Source: Gammaproteobacteria bacterium
Lineage (GTDB): Bacteria > Pseudomonadota > Gammaproteobacteria > Steroidobacterales > Steroidobacteraceae
Length of the DNA stretch: 45,653 bases
Assembly: GCA_016874055.1 (NCBI GenBank)
Contig: VGVG01000013.1
Span: 1-45,653 of the forward strand
Direction: 5' to 3'
In this document: positions 1 to 15,464 of the stretch, one piece after another
Layout of the letters: every line of letters starts with the position of its first letter
Numbering within the stretch: the stretch's first letter is position 1
Translations under genes and position numbers: made by a program
The notes under the pieces: model-generated
What the model saw: only the letters and a program-made list of their open reading frames with translations
What the model was told of the DNA's origin: nothing
The model's database searches: none

Positions 1-167
1 CAAGGCGCGCTTGCAAAAGCGCCAGCTGCGCCTTTATCGCCTCAAGCTCGGACTGCGCTGAGGTGATCGGCTCCGATGCGCCCGCAGCTTGCGCAGTCGA
101 CAGAGCAGCCGCTGTGACCAAGGCGGCAGCAACCATCAACCGTGCGCTCACCACGAGCAAGGTCATA
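1..167 (-). CDS. Exported protein with N-terminal coiled coil (3' part outside window)
   Basis: Only the first 55 codons are inside the window; the gene runs off the left edge. The translation starts MTLLVVSARLMVAAAL and continues through an Ala/Val-rich hydrophobic stretch ending TAQAAGA, a typical signal peptide with a cleavage site near residue 27. It is followed by a heptad-like helix (SAQSELEAIKAQLALLQARL). Such a start is common in periplasmic adaptors and in trimeric porins with an N-terminal coiled coil, but the family cannot be fixed from this fragment. The ATG lies 10 bases after the stop of the voltage-sensor-like gene, on the same strand, so it is probably the next cistron of that operon. 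Confidence 0.6.
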
Positions 168-177
168 CCCTTTGCGA

Positions 178-1320
178 TCAAACTTTCAGAATTTTCGCAT
201 TGAACTCCGTAGCGCCATCATCGATCGCAAGGTCCATATCTTCGATGATCATCAACAAACCGTAGAACACGAGGATGATGAGTAGTTGTATAAACAGACC
301 GAATACACCAGGCGCCGCGAGCATCACGAGGACAAAATACAGATTCGCAAGAAGCCTCATCCACGTATAGAACGCGGATGGGAAGTGACTTTGCGAGCGC
401 GTCAGAAATGCCGACAACCTCTGTACGAGCAGGGAGTGAAAGGGTACGTCCATACTCGGCCGCCCTTTGACTACGCCACGTATTTCGTTCAGGAATCGGG
501 TCGTCTCTGCCTTCATGTCCTCGTAGTTCACTTTAGCGATCACGAAAGCATCCATCTTCGCTCGATATCCCCCAAAGAGTTGATTGCGTCGATCTGTATC
601 CATCGCTTCAGAAAACACGTGGCGAAAATCGTCCTCGAAACCGTCAACCGCATCCATCGCCAACCGGTGCAGTTCCCCGATCTCCTCACGCTTTTTATTC
701 ACCATACCGAACGTAATCGCCATGGAGATGCCGAACGCCGAGCCGACCGCGGTGACCGACATCAGGATGACGGGCGTTTGGATGAACTGGTACGGATCAA
801 ATCCGAACACCGGCTGCAGCATCTGTGTGAGGACCCGAATACCTAAGTGCACACAAACGACCCCAAAGACCATGGTCAGCACCGAGGTGCCTAGCACTTC
901 GACGAGCAAATTACTCATGCGCAGCAGGGTCAGCACGCGCAGTAATCGAAAAAGACGCAGCAAGGTTAAAAGGACGACGTTCTCCGGATGCACGTCCCAA
1001 CCGAACGCCATAGCAACAATGGCTGCTGAGGGAACGATCGCGAGACCATCAAACGTCAGGAACATCCAGTTCTTTAAGCTGTGGTCGCTCAACGAGATGA
1101 TTCTGAGTAACACATCCACCGAAAAAGCGACCAGCAGAAAAGCCTCGACTGCGATAACAATCGGGTTGTCGTGGGTGTAGTAGTCCGGATATTCCTCGAG
1201 CAAAAACAAGAAGAGGATAGAGCCTACAATCGTTACCAGCATGAACACCATGTAGCGGCGGGCGAGCGGTGTACTCGGGTTATTAAGCTCTCTCTCAAGC
1301 GTGGCGAGTGTCGATGGCAT
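178..1320 (-). CDS. Voltage-sensor-like ion transport membrane protein without a recognisable pore
   Basis: 380 aa. Residues 22-41, 56-77 and 85-106 look like S1-S3, with D70/R73 in S2 and D91 in S3. Residues 117-136 form an S4-like helix with R122, R125, R128 and R134 at roughly three-residue steps, the hallmark of voltage-sensor domains of the ion transport superfamily. Two hydrophobic segments follow (about 142-164 and 181-206), but there is no TxGYGD or other selectivity filter. A charged cytoplasmic region (about 208-320) is followed by a long hydrophobic segment (about 328-360) ending in IIEDMDLAIDDG, vaguely like bestrophin-like/DUF4239 tails. The start has a strong ribosome binding site (AAAGGAGG). 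It follows the ClC gene by 33 bases in the same operon. It may be a voltage-gated channel with an unusual pore, a proton-channel-like sensor, or a sensor subunit. Confidence 0.75.
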   Translation of the reverse strand: MPSTLATLERELNNPSTPLARRYMVFMLVTIVGSILFLFLLEEYPDYYTHDNPIVIAVEAFLLVAFSVDVLLRIISLSDHSLKNWMFLTFDGLAIVPSAAIVAMAFGWDVHPENVVLLTLLRLFRLLRVLTLLRMSNLLVEVLGTSVLTMVFGVVCVHLGIRVLTQMLQPVFGFDPYQFIQTPVILMSVTAVGSAFGISMAITFGMVNKKREEIGELHRLAMDAVDGFEDDFRHVFSEAMDTDRRNQLFGGYRAKMDAFVIAKVNYEDMKAETTRFLNEIRGVVKGRPSMDVPFHSLLVQRLSAFLTRSQSHFPSAFYTWMRLLANLYFVLVMLAAPGVFGLFIQLLIILVFYGLLMIIEDMDLAIDDGATEFNAKILKV

Positions 1321-1353
1321 AAATCCTCCTTTATCGTCTTAACTCTTTAACTT

Positions 1354-2637
1354 TTATTTTTTGAGAATACGGTGAAGCGCTACTTCATACACCCCCTCTC
1401 GGCAAAGTGCTTTAGCGCTCCAGCCACCAATCAAAGCACAAACCAAAAGTTCGACTCCTAAGGCAGAGGCACCGCTCATCTCTGCGACCATCAGCGCGAC
1501 CGTGACAGGCGTGCGGATCACCCCGGAGAGAAAAGCGGTCATACCAAAGAGCACCAAAACTTGTCGCATCTCGTCAAGGTTCGTCAACGCAGCAAAGTCG
1601 TATCCAAACCCCCCCCCGATCGCGAGCGAAGGCGTGAGAATGCCAGCCGGCACGCCGGTGCCGAAAGTGAGTGTTGTGGCTAACGCCTTGGTTAGCCCGA
1701 CCGACATCATGGTCGTTTCGATTGACGCGGCGGGGTCGAGCAACACAGCGCTGGTCTCGTTACCTGAACCCATCGACAGCCCGTTACTCCAAACGCCAAG
1801 CAGCGCCAGAACGAGGCCTATCGCTCCAGCGATGAGTGCGCCGTGGGTGGGGCTACGGGGCGTGGGCAGAATACGGGGTAAAGCGAACATCATCAGCCAA
1901 CCCATCGCACCCGCTCCCACCCCGCAAAACGCGGCGAGCGTCAGCATACTCCACCATGGCGGGGTGTTGACGGCATCAACAACTACGTCAAAGAATTGTC
2001 GATCCCGTGTCACCAACCAACCGGTAATCGCTGCCGCGGCGACACAGAGCGGAACGAGCGCAATCGCCCGGTATCTCCGGCGCCAAAGAAATTCCTCAAA
2101 GGCGTACATCACCCCAGCGAGCGGCGTGCTAAAGGCAGCTGCCAGCCCCGTTGCGGCGCCCGCGATCGCGATAACGCGGTGGGGGATCACGACTTTACCG
2201 GATAGCCTCGATCCGCAGCTCAGCAGCGAGGCGCCCACTTGAATGGCCGGACCCTCTCGACCGACCGTGCCACCGCCCGCCATCGACAGCGACACCGCGA
2301 CCGCCTTGAACAGTGCACCCGCCGGACTCAGGAGCAACTTTTCGCCAGCGCGCTTTGGCGAGATCGGTTGCTCGGTCACCGCCATCACCTGCGGGATGCC
2401 GCTCCCGGCCGCAGCGGGCACGAATCGCAGCGTCAAGTAGCGCACGCCACCGAGCGTGATCGGCGTGATGAGAACAAACCACCACGGTGACAGCGCCAGC
2501 AAACGCTCACGAGCGATTTGTGCCGTCAGCTCGCCCTGTTGAAAAGCCACCATGAAAAGGGCGATCACCGCAGCGAATGCCACAGCCAGTGCCCAAGCCA
2601 GCCCTCTACGCCAGCGGTTACCGCGCGCGCGGCTCAC
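1354..2637 (-). CDS. ClC-family chloride channel / H+-Cl- antiporter
   Basis: 427 aa, the usual length for a bacterial ClC lacking CBS domains. Three selectivity motifs are visible: GSGIP (78-82), GREGP (126-130, with gating glutamate E128) and GVPAGILTPSLAIGG near residue 330. The EE pair at 181-182 matches the internal proton-transfer glutamate of exchanger-type ClCs, so Cl-/H+ antiport is more likely than a passive channel. The protein is almost entirely hydrophobic and should be an inner-membrane homodimer. The start is GTG, placed two bases after the stop of the coiled-coil gene (TAG GG GTG), so translation is probably coupled. Family assignment is firm; the physiological ion and role (acid resistance, charge balance for its operon partners) are inferred. 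Confidence 0.92.
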   Translation of the reverse strand: MSRARGNRWRRGLAWALAVAFAAVIALFMVAFQQGELTAQIARERLLALSPWWFVLITPITLGGVRYLTLRFVPAAAGSGIPQVMAVTEQPISPKRAGEKLLLSPAGALFKAVAVSLSMAGGGTVGREGPAIQVGASLLSCGSRLSGKVVIPHRVIAIAGAATGLAAAFSTPLAGVMYAFEEFLWRRRYRAIALVPLCVAAAAITGWLVTRDRQFFDVVVDAVNTPPWWSMLTLAAFCGVGAGAMGWLMMFALPRILPTPRSPTHGALIAGAIGLVLALLGVWSNGLSMGSGNETSAVLLDPAASIETTMMSVGLTKALATTLTFGTGVPAGILTPSLAIGGGFGYDFAALTNLDEMRQVLVLFGMTAFLSGVIRTPVTVALMVAEMSGASALGVELLVCALIGGWSAKALCREGVYEVALHRILKK

Positions 2638-2639
2638 CC

Positions 2640-3371
2640 CTACATCTTAAAGATGGTGTCCGCCACCCGGTTCCGGTTCGCGTCGATCTTCTCCCGGAGC
2701 GCCATGATTTCTGAACGCTGACTTTCGAGCCGATCGCCCATATCCGTTAACGATTCGGACTCGGCGGCGGCAGCGTTGAAGCGGGCTAGGAGACGCTCGC
2801 GGTTGCCTTGAGCTCGCTCTCGGATCCCTGCCACGAGTTCATCGTTTTCATCGACACGACGTTTGTTCGTCGCGGCGTCGGCTTGCTGCATTTGACGAAG
2901 CAGCTCGCCATCGAAGTACTGCGCGTTACGATCGGCGGCGTCGTCACAGTGCTCGAGCATCGTATCGTTGATACCCGAGAAGATCTGCGCCGCCTCCTTC
3001 ACAAGGCGGTACGCCTCGAGCATCTTATCGCTCGCCTCGATCAATTGGCGGTTGACTTTGGATCGATGATCCAGATTCTCGCTTCGATCTCGATTGGTCA
3101 TCGATACTTTATAGAGCGTTTGGTCCGGAGTCGTGGGCTGCAGGTTATCCAAGATCTGCATCCGATTACGATACACATCGTCCGTGAGACGCATGATAAG
3201 TTCGCGGTTACTGGTGGACGCTAGCGTGTAGAGCCTCATCGCCTCAGAAAAATTTTCATCTGCTCGTCCGCGAGCGATGGAGACGAGCCCAACGTTCTGA
3301 TAGACGAAGGATTCCGAATCGAAAATTAAGCGCTTGTTGCGCTGCGCTTGATTCTGCAGTTCCTCACTCAT
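2640..3371 (-). CDS. Soluble coiled-coil protein of unknown function
   Basis: 243 aa with no signal peptide or membrane segment. The sequence is strongly charged and helical from about residue 30 to the end, rich in Arg, Glu, Asp, Asn and Gln, with heptad-like stretches around 170-235. I do not recognise a family. It begins MSEELQNQAQRNK behind a good ribosome binding site (GAGGAGTGAG), three bases after the stop of the second PII-like gene, and its own stop is next to the ClC start. The position between PII-like regulators and a ClC transporter suggests a cytoplasmic scaffold or linker for this membrane system, but that is inference from context only. Confidence 0.75.
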   Translation of the reverse strand: MSEELQNQAQRNKRLIFDSESFVYQNVGLVSIARGRADENFSEAMRLYTLASTSNRELIMRLTDDVYRNRMQILDNLQPTTPDQTLYKVSMTNRDRSENLDHRSKVNRQLIEASDKMLEAYRLVKEAAQIFSGINDTMLEHCDDAADRNAQYFDGELLRQMQQADAATNKRRVDENDELVAGIRERAQGNRERLLARFNAAAAESESLTDMGDRLESQRSEIMALREKIDANRNRVADTIFKM

Positions 3372-3374
3372 GGC

Positions 3375-3740
3375 TCACTCCTCGCGTAGTGACGACACGA
3401 AAGCAACCCCCTCTGGGAGAGTCAGTCGTGACGACAGATTAAGTCGATGGACGGTAATCATGCCGACTCCGGGTTCGTTCAGCCGAAAGTCGTGGTACAG
3501 CATCGAGTAGATGTAATCGGATTGATCGGCCGAGACCACCGCGTGCAGGACCTCGGTTTTGGGGATCTCTGGAAGATTACCCGCCTCGCTGGCGCGGCCA
3601 ATCGGTTTCCCGCGAGTCGAATAAAAATACGTCTCACGGATGCCGCGTTGGTACAGCGACTCCAGTATCGACTCGGCACCACCCTCGTATAACACGCAGG
3701 TAATGAGTCGGGTGTAGTTAAGCCGTTGAACCTCGCTCAT
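3375..3740 (-). CDS. PII-like regulatory protein (second copy)
   Basis: 121 aa. The pattern is that of a small ferredoxin-like PII fold: an opening strand (RLITCVLYEGGAESILESLYQRGI), a T-loop-sized variable segment (about 38-62), a second strand (KTEVLHAVVSADQSDYIYSMLY) and a closing segment with GVGMITVHRL where classical PII has its B-loop/C-terminal strand. It lacks the GlnB T-loop tyrosine motif. It overlaps the preceding PII-like gene by four bases (ATGA), so the two are translationally coupled and may form heterotrimers. PII-type proteins beside membrane transporters usually gate them in response to nucleotides or metabolites. The ligand cannot be told from sequence. Confidence 0.72.
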   Translation of the reverse strand: MSEVQRLNYTRLITCVLYEGGAESILESLYQRGIRETYFYSTRGKPIGRASEAGNLPEIPKTEVLHAVVSADQSDYIYSMLYHDFRLNEPGVGMITVHRLNLSSRLTLPEGVAFVSSLREE

Positions 3741-4090
3741 GCGCGCTCCGTCAAGTTTGGCGGGATGTAGGTCGCCGCTTGAAGAAGTGGGGTCACATAT
3801 ACGTAACCCATACCCGGCGTATCAAGACGACCCACGATGAAAACTCGCTCGAAGATGCGGTCCACTTGATCGCTCGGCACCATGAAACTGATGATCTCTC
3901 GCTCCACATCGACGGCGACGCCGAGAAGTCCCATGCGCTCACGTACGCCGGTGCCGACGCCCATGTGCACGGTTGCACCCTGAACACCGAGTTCAAGCAA
4001 TGCCTTGTTGATGGTGTCGGCCATGCCTTTCTGGATGACGCAGGTCATCAAGGACACGTCGATCAGATTGGTCATTCTGCGCTTGGCCAT
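3737..4090 (-). CDS. PII-like regulatory protein (first copy)
   Basis: 117 aa. Closer to classical PII than its neighbour: LMTCVIQKGMADTINKALLELGVQG forms the first strand and helix, GATVHMGVGTGVRERMG sits where the T-loop begins, REIISFMVPSDQVDRIFERVF corresponds to the second strand-helix unit, and DTPGMGYVYVTPL resembles the B-loop (TGKIGDGKIFV in GlnB). There is no uridylylation-type tyrosine in the T-loop region, so this is a PII-like regulator rather than GlnB/GlnK. The ATG has a strong ribosome binding site (AGGAGAG, five bases upstream). It lies 52 bases downstream of the DUF1538 gene, so the likely target is that membrane protein. Confidence 0.8.
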   Translation of the reverse strand: MAKRRMTNLIDVSLMTCVIQKGMADTINKALLELGVQGATVHMGVGTGVRERMGLLGVAVDVEREIISFMVPSDQVDRIFERVFIVGRLDTPGMGYVYVTPLLQAATYIPPNLTERA

Positions 4091-4142
4091 GAATCTCTCC
4101 TAGCGGCTTAAAGACAAAGGTTCGACACGATGAGCGGGCGAT

Positions 4143-5894
4143 CTAAGCCAGGTTCCCCGCAAGTTCTTTTTTGGTTTTCCACTGCACGTAGATACCGAGC
4201 ATCAGCACCGCACAGATGGGGGCGATCGAGGCGGCAGCCAGGATCCCAAAGCCCTCAAGTGCTCCAACGGCTTTGCCGAAGCCGAGGCCCATCGCAAGAA
4301 CGAGTGGCACAGTAACCGGGCCGGTGGTGACGCCGGCGCTATCCCAGCCGACATTCACGAACTCTTCGGTTGACATGGCCGTCAAAATAAACGCCAGAAT
4401 GTAGCCGGGCACCAAAATGTAGAGCAGGTTGAAATTAAAGATTAATTTACACACGCCCAACATGATGCCCGTCGCGACCCCGATCGCCACCGCGTACATC
4501 AGCATCGACTTCTTAAACGCGCCGTTGGTGAGGTTTTGCACGGTCAGTCCGAGCGCATTTAACGCAGGCTCTGCCATCGTGGCGGCATAACCCAACGCCC
4601 AAGCGAAAGCCGCTGCGAGAAAGGTACCGACGGCATAGGGGTACAACGGCGCATTGGGCATGGCCTCGATGCCCACGAACGCCCCAGGGATCAGCGAGCC
4701 GGTCTGTGAGCCGAGTGCGGCCAAACCGGCGGTGAGACCGACGTTGAAGGTGCACATGCCAAGCACACACAGGAACAGACCCCAGACGATGATGAAGGCG
4801 TTGGGGAGCTTTTCTCGAAGGATGCCGAAGAGCACGACCATCAAGAAAAGCACAAGCGGCACGATCGCCTGCACGCCCATCTTCACATCGGAACCCGGAG
4901 GCACCTCGTACCAAGCCTTGGCAGTCGTCGCCGCTGCCGCCGCGCTCTTGGCGGCGAACTCCGCAGAGATGACATCGACCGGCACAGTGAACCTCCAAAA
5001 CACGGCGAGCGCGAGCACCGCCAAGATCGGAAAGACCGAGGCTAGGGTGACGATACCGAACCCCGAGAGCGCCGAGTTACCTTTACCTCCGGAGTTCGCG
5101 ACGCCGATGCCGAGCGCCAACACCAAGGGCACCGTGACTGGTCCCGTCGTCACCGCGCCGCAGTCCCACGCAAGGCCAACTACGGTGGCAAGCAGTGGGT
5201 CCAACGCGCAATAGGCGGTGAGAAGGATCACCGGCGCAAGACTGAGATAGATAAGCGGCTTCAGACTCCAGTCGTACAAGAAGCGGACCGTACCGAGTAT
5301 CGCGGCAACGCCGACGCCGATGCCGACGACGAGCACGGTCCAGGTCACGCGGTCGTTCAGCATCGTGTACAGGTAGGGCGCCTTTTGCGGGTCAACAATC
5401 GATCCCGCCACCTGCAGCGTACCAATCGCCGGCTCCGCGTAGGTCACCCCGATGCCGAGCAATCCGGCAATGGCGAGTACCCCGGGCAGGGGAAGCTTGC
5501 GGGGCAGGTTACTGCCGATGATGTCACCGAAGGGCATCAGACCGAGCTTCAAACCCTCCATGAAAATCATCAGACCGATCATCACGGCGAGCAGTCCTGT
5601 GCCGATGAGGGCCGCCTCCGCCACCGGTTTTTGCAGCACGAGCCACTGGAACACCGCGAGGAACACGGCCAGCGGCACCACCGCTGTCACTTGCTCCATG
5701 AATCGAGTGCTGAGGTACGGTTGGAGTAAGTTGACAATGTCCGAACCGGACATGATCAGCTTGGTGACCTTTTGCGGGACTTCGCGCCCCTGCGCATCGA
5801 AGATCGGTTGGGGCAATACGTTGCTGTAGGTGATTGACGCGGTGTCTACGGACACGACCTGCAGGTACTCGCCGAAGCGCACGTTCTTCGCCAT
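4143..5894 (-). CDS. DUF1538 family polytopic membrane protein (two repeats)
   Basis: 583 aa from the chosen start. The body holds two homologous halves. Each has a YAEPAIGTL/MAEPALNAL signature followed by a WDCGAVTTGPVTVPLVLALG/WDSAGVTTGPVTVPLVLAMG signature, the repeat that defines DUF1538. Roughly twelve or more hydrophobic segments point to an inverted-repeat or tandem-repeat transporter; the substrate is unknown. The reading frame is open 19 codons further upstream to 5951, but ATG 5894 has GGGGAGAG six bases before it and gives MAKNVRFGEYLQ. It is first in an operon with two PII-like genes, and DUF1538 genes are known to sit beside PII genes, so control by PII is a reasonable inference. 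Confidence 0.88.
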   Translation of the reverse strand: MAKNVRFGEYLQVVSVDTASITYSNVLPQPIFDAQGREVPQKVTKLIMSGSDIVNLLQPYLSTRFMEQVTAVVPLAVFLAVFQWLVLQKPVAEAALIGTGLLAVMIGLMIFMEGLKLGLMPFGDIIGSNLPRKLPLPGVLAIAGLLGIGVTYAEPAIGTLQVAGSIVDPQKAPYLYTMLNDRVTWTVLVVGIGVGVAAILGTVRFLYDWSLKPLIYLSLAPVILLTAYCALDPLLATVVGLAWDCGAVTTGPVTVPLVLALGIGVANSGGKGNSALSGFGIVTLASVFPILAVLALAVFWRFTVPVDVISAEFAAKSAAAAATTAKAWYEVPPGSDVKMGVQAIVPLVLFLMVVLFGILREKLPNAFIIVWGLFLCVLGMCTFNVGLTAGLAALGSQTGSLIPGAFVGIEAMPNAPLYPYAVGTFLAAAFAWALGYAATMAEPALNALGLTVQNLTNGAFKKSMLMYAVAIGVATGIMLGVCKLIFNFNLLYILVPGYILAFILTAMSTEEFVNVGWDSAGVTTGPVTVPLVLAMGLGFGKAVGALEGFGILAAASIAPICAVLMLGIYVQWKTKKELAGNLA

Positions 5895-5937
5895 GCAAAG
5901 CTCTCCCCGGTGGGCACAACGGGATACCGTCGCGACT

Positions 5938-5964
5938 CTTATAGTTGTCATCGTATCTCAGCAA
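5938..5964 (-). promoter_or_regulatory. Weak sigma-70-like promoter candidate for the DUF1538 operon
   Basis: On the minus strand TTGCTG (5959-5964) and TATAAG (5938-5943) are separated by 15 bases, a short spacer. The predicted transcription start is about 35-40 bases upstream of the DUF1538 ATG. The match is only moderate and rests on sequence alone. Confidence 0.2.
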
Positions 5965-6090
5965 AGAACCGGCCGACTTGCAAGGGCACTCAAATTCGGT
6001 GTCGCGCTGTTTCCGAAAACACTTATCCGAGGGCACCAAATAATGACCTGAGACTCCCGCCAAGGGGCCAGCCCACGTTTAGATCGGCCT

Positions 6091-6228
6091 TCAGCGGTGT
6101 GCGTCGAGGCTCAACTTATCAAGACGACGTCCCCGGATAGTAAGACCGCGGCGGGTTTGATTATCGGTCGACAAGGTCGACGCCTCGGTCGGACTTGGGG
6201 CGACTGGAACCGGTTGGATTTGAGTCAT
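6091..6228 (-). CDS. Possible 45-residue leader peptide upstream of the DUF1538 operon
   Basis: A short open frame starting MTQIQPVPVAPSPTEA and ending RRLDKLSLDAHR: Pro/Ser/Thr-rich first half, Arg/Lys/Asp-rich second half, no membrane segment. It lies about 200 bases upstream of the DUF1538 gene on the same strand, and a sigma-70-like promoter sits just before it. There is only a poor ribosome binding site (GGGTG). It could be a small regulatory or leader peptide, or a chance frame. No family is recognised. Confidence 0.22.
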   Translation of the reverse strand: MTQIQPVPVAPSPTEASTLSTDNQTRRGLTIRGRRLDKLSLDAHR

Positions 6229-6245
6229 GCACCCAAGCTTGTAAA

Positions 6246-6273
6246 AAGATAAAAGGAAATTATTTAAAATCAA
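6246..6273 (-). promoter_or_regulatory. Sigma-70-like promoter candidate in an AT-rich patch
   Basis: Read on the minus strand, TTGATT (6268-6273) and TATCTT (6246-6251) are separated by 16 bases. They lie in a markedly AT-rich stretch (about 6238-6285) that contrasts with the GC-rich surroundings. Transcription would start near 6239 and run toward the small frame at 6228 and the DUF1538 operon. Prediction from sequence only. Confidence 0.3.
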
Positions 6274-6680
6274 TTACTTAAGATGCAGATGCGCCATTGG
6301 CAGTTTGTTGCAGTCAATACGGACGTGGAACTCGTTGTCACGTTGGACCCCTCGTCAACTCGGTGCGTCCAGAGAGCTCGATGCGTCCGGAAGCGAGCAC
6401 GCGTTGCACGCGTCAGGCAGCAGCTGCGAGAGCTCCGCCTCAGGGGCACGCTGCGAGCGAGTCCGTGTGCCTCTCGTGCTGGAGGGAGGTGCTCACGGCG
6501 GCAGGACTTATCGGTAAGGTCCTTGCAGTGGCTCGTGGCCCGTGTGTGCCGCGGCTTACCATTAATCTAATCATCGACGGCCTGAACTTGGCGATCGGTC
6601 CCCGCGCGACGGTCTCCTCACCAAACTAAAACGGAAATTTTCAAGGTGTGCAGACCACCCTTGACCCACAAGCAGCCTCG
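6274..6680. other. Intergenic stretch with no supported gene
   Basis: About 400 bases between the AT-rich promoter patch and the small membrane protein gene. Short frames exist on the plus strand (6283-6629), but they are Arg/Cys-rich, overlap each other in several frames and lack ribosome binding sites. I see no convincing hairpin-plus-T-tract, RNA gene or repeat. Confidence 0.5.
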
Positions 6681-7659: not shown

Positions 7660-8427
7660 ATGGATATTGCAACTTTAATCGGACTTGTGGCGGCTGTCGG
7701 CATCATCATCTGGGCGATTACGCTCGGAGGATCTCTCGGCGCCTTCATTGACGTGCCCTCGGTTGCGATCGTGATCGGCGGCACGATCTCGGTCGTGATG
7801 TCCCGACATACCCTCCCGGAGTTCATTGGCCACCTCACGGGAGCGGTCAAGGCCTTTCTCCCTGGGACCCCAAAACTCGAACCTCTCGTAGAACAGTTTC
7901 CGGAATTCGCTCAAATCGCGAAAAAAGAGGGCCTTCTCGCCCTCGAGCCGAAGGCGGCAGAATCGAGCGATAAATTCTTAAAAACGGGATTGATGATGCT
8001 CGTCGACGGTCTTGGTGAGTCGGCGATCTCAAGCCGTATCAGGACAGATATCGAAGCTCGGGAGCGCCGACACGGCGCTGTCATCGCCGCCTGGCAGGGG
8101 TGGATTGACGTCGCGCCGGCGATGGGCATGATCGGCACCCTCGTCGGTCTCGTGCAGATGCTCGGCAACATGTCGGATCCGAAATCGATCGGGCCGGCGA
8201 TGGCCGTCGCCCTGTTAACAACGCTATACGGCGCGTTCATCGCCAACGTGGTAGCCGGACCGATCACCAACAAACTAAAGCTTTACCATGACGAAGAGGC
8301 GGTTTATTGCGAGGCTGTCTTGACCGGCCTCCAAGGCATCGCGCGTGGTGAGAATCCAAGAAACATCGGCGAATCGATCTTGGCTCTTTTGCCGCCTGCG
8401 ACACAAAAGGCCCTCGCGAAAAAGTAG
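7660..8427 (+). CDS. pomA: Flagellar stator subunit, PomA/MotC type (MotA family)
   Basis: 255 aa, the length of Na+-type PomA rather than the approximately 290 aa of E. coli MotA. Four membrane segments are visible: about 4-24, 30-48, and a pair around 150-170 and 180-205 after a cytoplasmic domain. VAPAMGMIGTLVGLVQML carries the conserved proline that sits near the ion path, and the cytoplasmic loop contains the charged IRTDIEARERRH stretch that contacts the rotor protein FliG. It is followed 11 bases later by the MotB-type partner. In the inner membrane it would form a 5:2 stator with that protein. Sodium specificity is inferred from family type; MotC-type members can also use protons. Confidence 0.88.
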   Translation: MDIATLIGLVAAVGIIIWAITLGGSLGAFIDVPSVAIVIGGTISVVMSRHTLPEFIGHLTGAVKAFLPGTPKLEPLVEQFPEFAQIAKKEGLLALEPKAAESSDKFLKTGLMMLVDGLGESAISSRIRTDIEARERRHGAVIAAWQGWIDVAPAMGMIGTLVGLVQMLGNMSDPKSIGPAMAVALLTTLYGAFIANVVAGPITNKLKLYHDEEAVYCEAVLTGLQGIARGENPRNIGESILALLPPATQKALAKK

Positions 8428-8438
8428 CAACCTAAGTC

Positions 8439-9725
8439 ATGAACGCTACAGCGAGCGAGGCGACTGCGGCTCAAGAGGCCGAGGTTGAGGGCGCGACCGA
8501 CAGCGGTGCGGCACCCGCGAAAGCTGCTGCTGCCGATGCGCCGCCACCGAAGAAATGTCCCGAGTGTCGCGCCGGTGCACCCGGCTGGATGGCAACCTTT
8601 GCGGACATGGCCACGCTGCTGCTGTGCTTTTTTGTGCTGATTTTGTCCTTCGCCGAAATGAACGTACCGAAGTACAAACAGATCTCGGGGAGCATGAAAG
8701 CCGCCTTCGGCGTGCAGAAAGATATCCCCGTGGTCGAACAACCGAAAGGAACGACCATATTATCCCTCAGCTTCTCGCCATCGCCGACGATGGCGCTCGT
8801 CGATAATCTGAAGCAGGAAACGACGGATACGACTCAAGAGGAAATTGAGGTTCGCGAAAAGGACCAAGACTTGCGCACCGAGGCGCTTTACGAGGCCGCG
8901 GGGCGTCGTCCAGTCGACTCGCAGCGCCCCGGCGCACAAGGCGGCAGCGCACCGGATTCGGTCGAGCAGGATGCCGCGAAATTGAAAGAGGCTCTCTCGG
9001 CTGAAATCGCCGCAGGCGTGGCGGAGGTGAAAGCCACCTCAACGAGAGTAACCGTTGAATTCAATGCCAAGGAAAACGCGCCGCGCGCCGCGCGCCTTGC
9101 CGCCGCACAAGCGGTCGCAGCCGGCGTTAAAAAAGTCAGCGAAGTCGTCGATGAACTTCAGAGTGAGGTTGCGATCACAGGCGCGACGCAAGCCCTGATC
9201 GCATCGGTGGAGTCCCAACCTGCTGCGGGCCAATCCGAAGGAGGCTCCGGCAAAGGCGGTGGATCTGCAGAAAAGGTCGAAGCAGCCGCCAAAGCGTTCG
9301 AGGCAGCATTCTCCGGCGAGATCAAGGAAGGCTTGGTCAAGGTGGAACGAAAGGACGGCGCAGTCACCGTGAAAATCGGGTCAGGGGGCGCTTTCGCGAC
9401 GGGCGATGCCGCACTGACTCCTCTTGCCACACAGATCATCGAAAAAATCGGCGACGTCGCCAACTCCGTGAACGCAAAGGTCGTCATCGGCGGTCATACG
9501 GACAACGTCCCGATCAGAACGGTCAAATATCGTGACAACTGGGATCTCTCGGCAGCGCGTGCGGTATCCGTCGTGAGAGAGCTCGTCACAGCGCGTCGTT
9601 TTGATCCGGCGCGGATCGAGGCCCAGGGCTTTGCCGACACCAAACCCGTGGCAGCAAATGACTCGCCAGAGAACCGCGCACTCAACCGACGAATCGAAAT
9701 CGAGGTTCGACTCCCAGAGGTTTGA
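8439..9725 (+). CDS. pomB: Flagellar stator subunit, PomB type (MotB family), with enlarged linker
   Basis: 428 aa, about 100 residues longer than typical PomB. An Ala-rich tail and a CPEC motif (40-43) precede the single membrane helix (about 54-73), with ion-binding aspartate D56 in FADMATLLLCFF. The C-terminal OmpA-like peptidoglycan-binding domain carries GGHTDN (351-356), NWDLSAARA and NRRIEIEV. The region between is unusual. A segment at about 178-213 (KLKEALSAEIAAGVAEVK, RVTVEF) resembles the pre-OmpA segment at about 284-318 (AFEAAFSGEIKEGLVKVE, AVTVKI), suggesting an internal duplication joined by an Ala- and Gly-rich linker. It anchors the stator to the cell wall. Cotranscribed with pomA and with a small gene downstream. 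Confidence 0.87.
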   Translation: MNATASEATAAQEAEVEGATDSGAAPAKAAAADAPPPKKCPECRAGAPGWMATFADMATLLLCFFVLILSFAEMNVPKYKQISGSMKAAFGVQKDIPVVEQPKGTTILSLSFSPSPTMALVDNLKQETTDTTQEEIEVREKDQDLRTEALYEAAGRRPVDSQRPGAQGGSAPDSVEQDAAKLKEALSAEIAAGVAEVKATSTRVTVEFNAKENAPRAARLAAAQAVAAGVKKVSEVVDELQSEVAITGATQALIASVESQPAAGQSEGGSGKGGGSAEKVEAAAKAFEAAFSGEIKEGLVKVERKDGAVTVKIGSGGAFATGDAALTPLATQIIEKIGDVANSVNAKVVIGGHTDNVPIRTVKYRDNWDLSAARAVSVVRELVTARRFDPARIEAQGFADTKPVAANDSPENRALNRRIEIEVRLPEV

Positions 9726-13079: not shown

Positions 13080-13613
13080 TCAATCGAGCGAATTGAACTC
13101 GCGCGGCAGGCGATAGGTTTTTTTGAATTCGGTCACGATCGCCTTCGCACGCTGTTGCTGCTCCGGCGTCATCGTACGCTCGACGACCAAGAGATTCTTG
13201 TCGACGGTCGTCACGAAATCCTTCTCCCAGCCTCCCGCCGACGCGAGTGCCGTGGACATCCAGACGTGGGCCTTCAAGGAATTCGGCTGTACACCCTTGC
13301 CATAGGCGTACCGCAGACCGATCTCCGCACGTGCCCGAGGGTTCCCGCGTTGTGCGGCCGTCAAATACCAGCGACTCGCCAGCCGCTCGTTTTGCTTGAC
13401 ACAAAGACCGCGCGCGTACAACTCCGCCAAACCGAAAGGCGAAGTGGAATCGCCCGACTTCTCGCTCGCCAACCACGCCTCGCGAGCCTCGCAATACTGA
13501 CCGGTACGAAACAGATCGAACCCGCGAATGAACTGGGCATGGGCTGCCGCCGACCACGAGAGCACCGCGAGCATGACGACGAGCCCTACCGGGTAGCGAG
13601 AGTCACGAATCAT
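13080..13613 (-). CDS. Exported Sel1-type repeat protein downstream of motB
   Basis: 177 aa. A signal peptide (VGLVVMLAVLSWSAAAHAQ) is followed by TPR/Sel1-like helical repeats, with SPFGLAELYARGLCV and ARAEIGLRYAYGKGV showing the A.LG..Y..G.GV pattern, and a helical C-terminal third. Sel1 proteins are protein-protein interaction scaffolds. Its start overlaps the motB stop by four bases (ATGA), so it is the last cistron of the flhA-to-motB transcription unit. A periplasmic helper for motor assembly is conceivable, as with other small repeat proteins in flagellar loci, but this is inferred from position. Confidence 0.75.
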   Translation of the reverse strand: MIRDSRYPVGLVVMLAVLSWSAAAHAQFIRGFDLFRTGQYCEAREAWLASEKSGDSTSPFGLAELYARGLCVKQNERLASRWYLTAAQRGNPRARAEIGLRYAYGKGVQPNSLKAHVWMSTALASAGGWEKDFVTTVDKNLLVVERTMTPEQQQRAKAIVTEFKKTYRLPREFNSLD

Positions 13614-14620
13614 TGCACAGGTTTCGCTCCGTCGCGATAGAGCACCGTGATGCTGATTCGGCGATTACGAGGATCCGAGGGATTGTCCGCGTTAACGGGC
13701 TGCGAATCAGCGACACCCTCGATGCGCGAAAAACGCGAATTATCCACCCCGAGGGAATTGAGGAACTGGCGAGTGGAGTCGGCACGACCTGCAGAAAGGC
13801 TCCAATTGTTCTTCGCCGTTGTTTTTTTGAATTGCAGACTGTCGGTGTGACCACGCACTGCAATCTCGTTGGGAATGCTCTTGAGACTTGCGCCGACCTT
13901 CTCGATCAAGGCGACCGCCTCACCCGACAACTCTTCGGTGCCTAAACCGAACATCGAGAATCCGGCGTCATCGAGTATCTCGATGCGCAAGCCTTCCTTC
14001 TCGCGTACGAACTTGACCACGGACATCAGATTGAAGGTTTTCTGATCCGCTCCGATCTGCTTCTCGAGTTGGTCCTGCAGATTTTCGAAATTCTTCTCAT
14101 CCTCTTCGGCAGCGATCTCTCTCCGTTCTGCGTCGCTCAGCCCCTGCGGCAGGGCCTGATCCTCCGAGGTGACTTCCTGTTCTTCGGTCCCAGGCGCCGT
14201 CAGCTGCAACACTCCCGTCTGCGTAAACGTCATGGGGAGCGCCTTCGGATCGATCAGCGACAAGCCGCCGAAAAATCCAGTCGAGCCTCCCGACATGTCG
14301 ACTCTCGGAGCGTTGGTCGGTTGGAAGTATTCCGCGATGCTCTTGCGTTGTTCCTCGTTGGTCGCGCCGAGCAACCACATGAGAAGAAAGAACGCCATCA
14401 TCGCGGTCATCATGTCGGCGAGCGCGATCTTCCACGCGCCGCCGTGGCCACCCGCGTGACCCTCGTCGATGATTTTCTTGATGATGATCGGCGGCAGCTG
14501 CGGAGCTGCCGGCGCTGCATCGGCTTGAGGCGCCTCGGCTGCGGGAACAGGCGCCCCTCCGGCATTCGCCGGATCTTCGGTCGCCACGGCCGCGGCGACG
14601 TTACTTGCCTCGAAGGCCAT
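13610..14620 (-). CDS. motB: Flagellar motor protein MotB (H+-type stator)
   Basis: 336 aa from ATG 14620, preceded by GGAGGT; the frame also extends to a TTG at 14635. After an Ala/Pro-rich cytoplasmic tail (about 1-45) and IIIKKIIDEG, the single membrane helix follows WKIALADMMTAMMAFFLLMW, whose aspartate is the proton-carrying residue. A plug/linker region (about 85-200) leads to the OmpA-like domain with VRGHTDSLQF, NNWSLSAGRA and NRRISITVLY. The start overlaps the motA gene by 20 bases, so the pair is coupled. Sequence type (ALADMMTAMM) is that of E. coli MotB, distinct from the PomB-like protein elsewhere in the window. Confidence 0.93.
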   Translation of the reverse strand: MAFEASNVAAAVATEDPANAGGAPVPAAEAPQADAAPAAPQLPPIIIKKIIDEGHAGGHGGAWKIALADMMTAMMAFFLLMWLLGATNEEQRKSIAEYFQPTNAPRVDMSGGSTGFFGGLSLIDPKALPMTFTQTGVLQLTAPGTEEQEVTSEDQALPQGLSDAERREIAAEEDEKNFENLQDQLEKQIGADQKTFNLMSVVKFVREKEGLRIEILDDAGFSMFGLGTEELSGEAVALIEKVGASLKSIPNEIAVRGHTDSLQFKKTTAKNNWSLSAGRADSTRQFLNSLGVDNSRFSRIEGVADSQPVNADNPSDPRNRRISITVLYRDGAKPVQ

Positions 14621-15464
14621 CGAAGACCTCCGCAAACGTAGGCGCAGAATGATGGTCGATCGCTGCGCGCGCGGATTCGATGATCAATGGAACCGGATCA
14701 CCACGGATATGACCGATCAGGGTGAACTTCGCGACAGCGTAGATCTGACCCTCTTCATCGACGATCTGCGCAAGACGCGCTGCGAGCGGTCCCACGATGC
14801 CGTATGCCATGAACACGCCAAGAAAGGTTCCGACGAGCGCACTGCCGATCAGTGCACCGAGAATCGCCGGGGGCTGATCGATCGCCGCCATCGTCTTCAC
14901 CACGCCGAGCACGCACGCGACGATGCCGAGTGCGGGCAGCGCGCCTTCGAGACTAACGAGCGCCTGCGCGGGTCTCATCGCCGAATGGTGGTGGGTCTTG
15001 ATCGCAACCATGAGGTTATCCGCCACCGTCTCGGGATTTGGCGGCTGGTTGGACGTCACGAGCAAACGGATGGTGTCGCAAATCATGCCGATGAGCGCGT
15101 GATCCTTCAGGAGTTTCGGGAACTCACCAAAGATCGAACTGGCTTCCGGATTTTCGATGTGCGGTTCGAGGGCGACAGCGCCCTCGGCCTTGAGAAGCTT
15201 GAAGAGCTTGGTGATCAGCGTGATCGTGTCTTGAAACTCCTGCTTGTGATACGCGGGTCCACTCAAACATTTGCCGATTCCCGCGCCGACGCCCTTGAGG
15301 ATGGCCACGCTGTTACCTATCACCATGGCGCCGAGTCCCGCGCCGAGGATGATCCCCAGCTCCGTCGGGACGGCTTCGATGAGCGGAGCCATCGGCCCGT
15401 GATGCGCGACGTAAAAACCGAAAACGCAGCCAAACAGAACTACCAATCCGATAATGACGAACAT
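14601..15464 (-). CDS. motA: Flagellar motor protein MotA (H+-type stator)
   Basis: 287 aa, the usual length of E. coli-type MotA. Membrane segments are at about 2-20, 33-52, 170-190 and 200-225. ALPALGIVACVLGVVKTMAAI and LIGSALVGTFLGVFMAYGIVG match the conserved third and fourth helices, with the conserved prolines, and HHHSAMRPAQAL is the cytoplasmic region contacting FliG. The ribosome binding site is good (AGGGAGCAGG). It lies 39 bases after fliA in the flhA-flhF-flhG-fliA-motA-motB unit. It forms the proton channel with MotB. Together with the PomAB-like pair, this strain encodes two distinct stators. Confidence 0.94.
   Translation of the reverse strand: MFVIIGLVVLFGCVFGFYVAHHGPMAPLIEAVPTELGIILGAGLGAMVIGNSVAILKGVGAGIGKCLSGPAYHKQEFQDTITLITKLFKLLKAEGAVALEPHIENPEASSIFGEFPKLLKDHALIGMICDTIRLLVTSNQPPNPETVADNLMVAIKTHHHSAMRPAQALVSLEGALPALGIVACVLGVVKTMAAIDQPPAILGALIGSALVGTFLGVFMAYGIVGPLAARLAQIVDEEGQIYAVAKFTLIGHIRGDPVPLIIESARAAIDHHSAPTFAEVFDGLRGK

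Follow-up and report, generated by a model that had tools for sequence, protein, structure and literature searches.

The DNA analysed here, referred to as the window, is the whole 45,653-nucleotide stretch of contig VGVG01000013.1, from a gammaproteobacterium of the Steroidobacteraceae (assembly GCA_016874055.1). The open reading frame list and translations of the window place six tightly packed frames on the minus strand between positions 178 and 5894. In gene order these encode a fused UmpAB-type transporter (UMP), two PII-like proteins (PIIa and PIIb), a helical coiled-coil protein, a ClC exchanger-type transporter, and a voltage-sensor-like membrane protein. The successive intergenic gaps are 52, -4, 3, 2 and 33 nucleotides; the longest separates UMP from PIIa, and the PIIa and PIIb frames overlap by 4 nucleotides in an ATGA arrangement. 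A first-pass annotation of this DNA had described six same-strand genes with overlaps or short gaps, including two distinct PII-like proteins. The boundaries are as it gave them, the gaps range from -4 to 52 nucleotides, and the two PII-like proteins, their frames overlapping, are recovered by Pfam (PIIa) and by profile comparison (PIIb). The locus is, somewhat more probably than not, a regulated, PII-gated monovalent-cation/proton antiport module in which a helical scaffold is combined with an electrical or counter-ion partner that can be exchanged.

UMP (4143..5894, minus strand; 583 amino acids) contains two DUF1538 stretches (Pfam PF07556, E 1.3e-100, 335.4 bits against a cut-off of 22.6). 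The NCBIfam models UmpA (3.8e-55) and UmpB (3.3e-45) have their best stretches on the two halves of the chain, and a conserved VTTGPVTVPLVLA-type motif is present in both halves. The start codon ATG 5894 was preferred over 5951 because the Burkholderiales homologues begin with the same MAKNIRFG stretch. Judged by these matches, UMP joins two DUF1538 units in a single chain and is related to the UmpAB Na+(Li+,K+)/H+ antiporter. The DUF1538 transporter of the earlier annotation is thereby upheld and its substrate class sharpened to that antiporter family. UmpA and UmpB of Halomonas zhaodongensis, in the accessible passages of their description, act jointly as a Na+(Li+,K+)/H+ antiporter (PMC5484666), and passages on cable bacteria report UmpAB homologues in their genomes, with a possible role in salt adaptation (PMC10030654, PMC12093952).

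PIIa (3737..4090, minus strand) scores 29.3 bits with Pfam P-II (cut-off 25), its profile matches solved GlnB proteins (best 4e-6), and it is 78% identical to four Burkholderiales copies. Since the canonical nucleotide loop is absent from its sequence, it is classed as PII-like and not as GlnB or GlnK. The second, diverged protein, PIIb (3375..3740, minus strand), has no Pfam match over cut-off and matches a solved P-II protein weakly (0.0027). The PIIa profile, against which hhalign gave 98.8%, is the sole route by which PIIb is placed in the PII superfamily, a placement that the comparison supports. PDB entry 9p1x is matched by both PII profiles. Known PII families are trimers. PIIa is the only P-II match in the assembly; the assembly is 83.65% complete, so this point is not used as support.

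The transporter and the two PII-like genes recur together in many lineages. With the fused protein as query, 123 of 398 genomes of the phylum had some match at E 1e-10, among them the window's own genome. Among the matches listed, 40 besides the window's were full or near-full length, and 37 of the 40 were fetched with their surroundings. One of these (L064), in which UMP is truncated and PIIa and PIIb come next, was left out, leaving 36 full fused loci. PIIa and PIIb lie directly downstream of UMP in 34 of the 36. The two exceptions are L073, where the contig ends within PIIa, and L071, where PIIa is present and PIIb was not found. A 589-amino-acid open frame after UmpAB in L071 matches both PIIa and a SpoIIE-like protein, which may be a fusion or an assembly fault. 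In all five loci inspected, unfused umpA-umpB genes are followed by one PII-like gene: L082, L083 and L084, together with L051 and L057, where they form a second copy and this unfused umpA-umpB-PII set adjoins the fused set in the same locus. By its distribution, fused UmpAB-PIIa-PIIb is an old core. DUF1538 occurs in 6 of 100 sampled genomes of the window's family, its own included, and the whole plasmid collection held no match to fused UmpAB at E 1e-20.

Judged from the flanking genes, the core is constant and its partner changes; ion genes recur without being universal. A cyclic-nucleotide-binding channel gene lies divergent within about 510 bases upstream in all five f211 loci fetched (of six among the matches listed, 33-37% identical), and in L048 such a gene stands just after PIIb. 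The gene trkA is found by the core in L051 and L057, accompanied by trkH in L051 and by a further channel-type match upstream in L057. Pfam was applied to the channels of L048, L066 and L069 and to trkA of L051, and the remaining partner calls were made by phmmer.

The coiled-coil protein (2640..3371, minus strand) belongs to no family over cut-off in Pfam or NCBIfam. At E 0.001 it found only the window's own match in 369 genomes of the class, 398 of the phylum and 117 of the order (overlapping samples), none in 48 genomes of the class of genome G473 (a search with no positive control), and none in the 36 fused loci. Viral contigs, searched with exact 8-residue patterns, held no relatives. A scan of genome contigs recovered five coiled-coil loci, about 41% identical, in Oxalobacteraceae/Burkholderiales metagenome-assembled genomes, and 7 of 195 genomes in the family of one such hit carry the gene, two of the seven being among the first five loci. 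Together they make ten genomes, L085-L089 and L098-L102, and the handle L103 denotes the same genome as L087.

In these genomes the gene order of the window is repeated. All eight loci that have room for it (L085, L086, L087, L088, L089, L098, L099, L101) carry PIIb immediately upstream of the coiled-coil gene, and UMP-PIIa-PIIb-coiled-coil stands in one order in 7 of 7 (L085, L086, L088, L089, L098, L099, L101); L087 starts at PIIa and so falls outside the second count, and in L088 the contig ends within the UMP gene. The window and five Burkholderiales rows form one clade, with support 100/100, in a tree of 42 fused proteins; the window UMP is 61-68% identical to the five Burkholderiales UMPs and at most 58% to others. 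Three Burkholderiales pairs gave nonsynonymous divergence (dN) of 0.086-0.095 against synonymous divergence (dS) of 0.81-1.74 for the coiled-coil gene, which is under strong purifying selection among these copies. The operon is considered more than a chance grouping because the four-gene order recurs in other genomes and the coiled-coil gene is under such selection. An AlphaFold2 model of this soluble protein from four sequences is all-helical (mean predicted local distance difference test score, pLDDT, 66; predicted template modelling score, pTM, 0.45). By its homologues this protein is a real, conserved, unnamed family and the main novelty of the finding; its membership in the operon, proposed when it was first noticed as a protein of unknown kind, is confirmed by its place behind UmpAB-PIIa-PIIb in Burkholderiales.

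Directly downstream of the coiled-coil gene, all seven Burkholderiales loci with room (L085, L086, L087, L088, L099, L100, L102) have a gene for a voltage-gated potassium (Kv)-like channel, and the tail of L089 holds the start of the same gene. Pfam Ion_trans was run on the L085 channel (5628-6518) only, with E 1.1e-28, and the other copies were matched to L085 by phmmer. The filter reads TSGYGN (L086, L099, L100, L102) or TSGSGN (L085), replacing TVGYGD; L087 and L088 lie outside the alignment. Of five loci with room, four carry a divergent trkA upstream (L085, L089, L099 and, in part, L086) and L101 does not; trkH stands behind trkA in L085, L089 and L099. Further channel-type (Ion_trans) genes are found near the module in L086 (4035-12718), L099, L100 and L103, as is a gene that we take to be TerC-like; in L086 and L103 the neighbours include, in addition, a Na+/H+ exchanger and a CitMHS-family transporter. 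Among these additional genes Pfam was run on those of L086 only.

The remaining two genes of the window differ in their distribution. The ClC gene (1354..2637, minus strand) has a GTG start codon, and its product matches Voltage_CLC (2.1e-59). Aligned with E. coli ClcA it retains GSGIP, GREGP and the EE pair, and with them the exchanger glutamates, as expected of the exchanger-type ClC of the earlier annotation. The voltage-sensor-like protein (178..1320, minus strand) matches Ion_trans over residues 24-172 (6.7e-7, 29.2 bits against a cut-off of 25). Its translation reads an S4-like RxxRxxRxxTxxR, with six hydrophobic segments, a further C-terminal hydrophobic stretch and a C-terminal cytoplasmic segment. 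The Ion_trans match and the S4 arginines agree with its first description as an S4-bearing protein. It has TAVGSAFG at the place aligned with a TVGYGD-type K+ filter, and because that filter is missing it is not filed as a K+ channel. Searched against 184 other genomes of the class, it had no relative at E 1e-6, and none was found on plasmids. Orthology with the Burkholderiales channel was rejected for now (hhalign 5.6%, 82 columns), no alignment extending beyond the sensor. A single-sequence structure of the protein was unusable (mean pLDDT 46).

By this distribution the ClC and voltage-sensor-like genes look like local additions. It is a serious possibility, falling only just short of probable, that UmpAB-PIIa-PIIb, perhaps with the coiled-coil protein, is the sole functional unit and that the two are unrelated neighbours. 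The five coiled-coil-bearing Burkholderiales genomes searched contain no ClC relative at E 0.001 (no positive control), the voltage-sensor-like protein had no relative among the 184 other genomes of the class, and neither gene adjoins the 36 fused loci, the sole ClC match there being 6.7 kilobases off on the opposite strand in L048. However, the two genes are packed into the operon with gaps of 2 and 33 nucleotides, and an Ion_trans-type channel gene does follow the coiled-coil gene in all seven Burkholderiales loci with room. One conserved module of all six genes, as originally envisaged, is not upheld, since the ClC and voltage-sensor-like proteins are not found in related modules. The neighbourhood comparison that the first-pass annotation had suggested leaves UMP-PIIa-PIIb-coiled-coil as the conserved part and the other two genes as what seems to be local linkage, although the neighbours of the core in some other lineages include channels of other families. 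The outcome is intermediate between conservation of the whole operon and conservation of the DUF1538-PII pair alone.

For the PII-regulated antiport module that is favoured here, the observed gene order, families, conservation, clade and selection form the basis, and the function of each step (cation/H+ exchange, PII docking, scaffold, and electrical or counter-ion role) is one that we infer. The fused UmpAB would exchange K+ or Na+ for H+, as the characterised UmpAB pair does. PIIa and PIIb would be cytosolic, bind a small ligand, dock on the antiporter and switch it, by analogy with GlnK-AmtB and SbtB-SbtA, in which a PII-type protein controls a transporter. The coiled-coil protein, a partner of this sub-type, would most likely be an elongated, possibly trimeric helical scaffold linking the PII proteins to a membrane partner. 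The last slot would hold a membrane protein whose role is to set or read the membrane potential or to give the counter-ion: presumably the Kv-like channel in Burkholderiales, and ClC with the voltage-sensor-like protein in the window. These last two genes may add chloride and potential coupling to the window copy, as a local feature only. Because two PII-like genes are kept behind one antiporter gene, with a conserved helical partner in one clade, PII regulation is taken as the best explanation.

Several observations weigh against this interpretation. UMP falls well below the NCBIfam equivalog cut-offs (UmpA, 186.8 of 490 bits; UmpB, 154.5 of 500 bits); it is filed for this reason as a relative of UmpAB and not as UmpAB itself, and its ion specificity may therefore differ. 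PIIa has GMGYVYV where solved GlnB proteins have GDG(K/R)IF, the intervening region being a few residues shorter than in those proteins; the K/R of the nucleotide loop is lost and the usual ATP/ADP reading is therefore doubtful. All six other genomes of the genus lack the DUF1538 gene of the module. A coiled-coil relative without UmpAB, 25% identical, lies on an Octadecabacter arcticus plasmid (L044, 8992-9705). It contains 13.5% Asn, sits alone between two IS6 transposase genes with no DUF1538 gene annotated nearby, and is the only coiled-coil relative found on plasmids; the family is therefore not confined to this module. A SpoIIE-type phosphatase gene stands next to the core in 11 of 20 loci of family f207 (L061, L062, L070-L072, L074-L077, L079, L080; Pfam on L061 and L062) and, by its family, points to another signalling output, and in the three f208 and four f228 loci the ion-gene queries that were applied gave no match. 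The channel linkage is therefore not general. Finally, the protein contacts within the module are ones that we infer.

Some of the same evidence would suit a transport module of another kind, in which the fused DUF1538 protein moves a different solute, for instance a compound of carbon or nitrogen, with PII proteins that behave like GlnK or SbtB. Known PII-transporter pairs serve ammonium and bicarbonate, and the missed UmpA and UmpB cut-offs leave room for such a solute. We nevertheless regard this as improbable: the transport genes in the flanks are mostly K+ and Na+ ones, and the characterised DUF1538 pair is a cation/H+ antiporter in the accessible part of its description (PMC5484666).

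The coiled-coil protein has an unusual arrangement of asparagines. In the window protein 6 Asn-Asn pairs are spaced by 14 residues against 1.2 in shuffles (p 0.0005, 2000 composition shuffles). Five Burkholderiales proteins have 4-5 such pairs (p 0.007-0.021; these are close relatives and the rows are not independent), and the Octadecabacter relative has 11, a number reached by 0 of 2000 shuffles. Asn 12, 26, 40 and 69 of the window protein are also found in the Octadecabacter and Burkholderiales homologues, L099 lacking Asn 12. Ile or Val precedes the counterparts of these four by three residues in the Burkholderiales and Octadecabacter proteins; in the window protein this holds for Asn 26 and 69, with Ala three before 12 and 40. 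Most other Asn positions of the coiled-coils have no Ile or Val three before. The recurrence of Asn at steps of 14 residues, frequently with Ile/Val three positions ahead of it, is suggestive of the Asn layers of trimeric coils. Such layers hold anions such as chloride. In the same register the protein also aligns weakly with 2wpq, a fragment of a trimeric autotransporter; the E value of 0.023 is not significant alone, and no paper describing the Asn-layer motif was found. That the coiled-coil protein binds chloride or another anion in its Asn layers and passes the signal to the antiporter under PII control, thereby fitting the export of cations to the chloride moved by the ClC, is very unlikely, for although the Asn 12, 26, 40 and 69 pattern with its spacing, the 2wpq register and the adjoining ClC gene of the window would suit it, the 2wpq match is insignificant by itself, Ala stands before window Asn 12 and 40, and no ClC gene lies beside the Burkholderiales coiled-coils. 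An equally long shot is the elaborated form of the antiport module, in which two PII-like trimers would sit on a trimeric coiled-coil with anion-holding Asn layers, the antiporter being tuned by a metabolite together with cytosolic chloride or membrane potential, and the channel and ClC partners being interchangeable across lineages.

Beyond the six genes, a seventh frame (1..181, minus strand), absent from the first-pass annotation, is the 5' part of a gene truncated by the contig end. It starts at TTG 181 or ATG 166, the start overlapping the preceding stop, and is open through window base 1, which is contig base 1; its N-terminus is signal-peptide-like, and Pfam and NCBIfam gave no family match. 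The opposite flank of the operon holds what are presumably a DUF1566-like gene and pomA and motB of a flagellar cluster. Two different gene pairs, at 7660-9725 (plus strand) and 13610-15464 (minus strand), are taken by us to be flagellar stator-type pairs of one flagellar cluster. The DUF1566-like gene, pomA and motB are present in genome G012 with other genes beside them; the module was therefore gained in the lineage of the window or lost in others.

In our view, how bacteria couple the antiport of cations and protons to their metabolic state is still a question for most groups. An antiporter and two PII-like genes kept in several lineages, with a dedicated unnamed protein and a channel in one clade, would amount to a small operon for PII control of ion balance, and the four-gene set beside a potassium-type channel gene in Oxalobacteraceae suggests a sensor-controlled ion-balance machine. 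In a literature search that joined PII with antiporter and voltage-gated channel vocabulary, no paper matched five of the six terms. Like UmpAB of Halomonas zhaodongensis, the window transporter is built from a pair of homologous DUF1538 units, and its two halves match the models of UmpA and UmpB; unlike that pair, it is one fused chain, below the equivalog cut-offs, and is followed by two PII-like genes and a coiled-coil gene. The terms 'P-II' and 'nitrogen regulatory' are absent from the text of the H. zhaodongensis paper (PMC5484666), and the passages available on DUF1538 and UmpAB make no mention of a PII partner (PMC5484666, PMC10030654, PMC12093952).

Single components of the locus resemble other known proteins. 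The window ClC keeps the exchanger glutamates of the ClC H+/Cl- exchangers such as ClcA, but a ClC is not found in related modules. The voltage-sensor-like protein shares an S4-like helix with voltage-gated cation channels, but it has no recognisable K+ filter and is likewise not found in related modules. With the trimeric autotransporter coil 2wpq the coiled-coil protein has in common, in the aligned part, (I/V)xxN and the 14-residue spacing, a pattern that is clear in the Burkholderiales and Octadecabacter proteins and partial in the window protein, whereas no membrane or export signal is seen in it, its helices are much longer and the similarity is not significant. As in GlnK-AmtB and SbtB-SbtA, a PII-family gene adjoins a membrane transporter gene; in contrast to these, the window has two different PII-like proteins, a non-canonical nucleotide loop and a transporter of a cation/H+ antiporter family. 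In E. coli the cytosolic signalling protein PtsN is reported to inhibit the K+/H+ antiporter YcgO by interaction (PMC11808508); there too a cytosolic signalling protein is combined with a K+/H+ antiporter, although the protein families are unrelated. Set among these systems, the finding is a variant form of PII-controlled transport.

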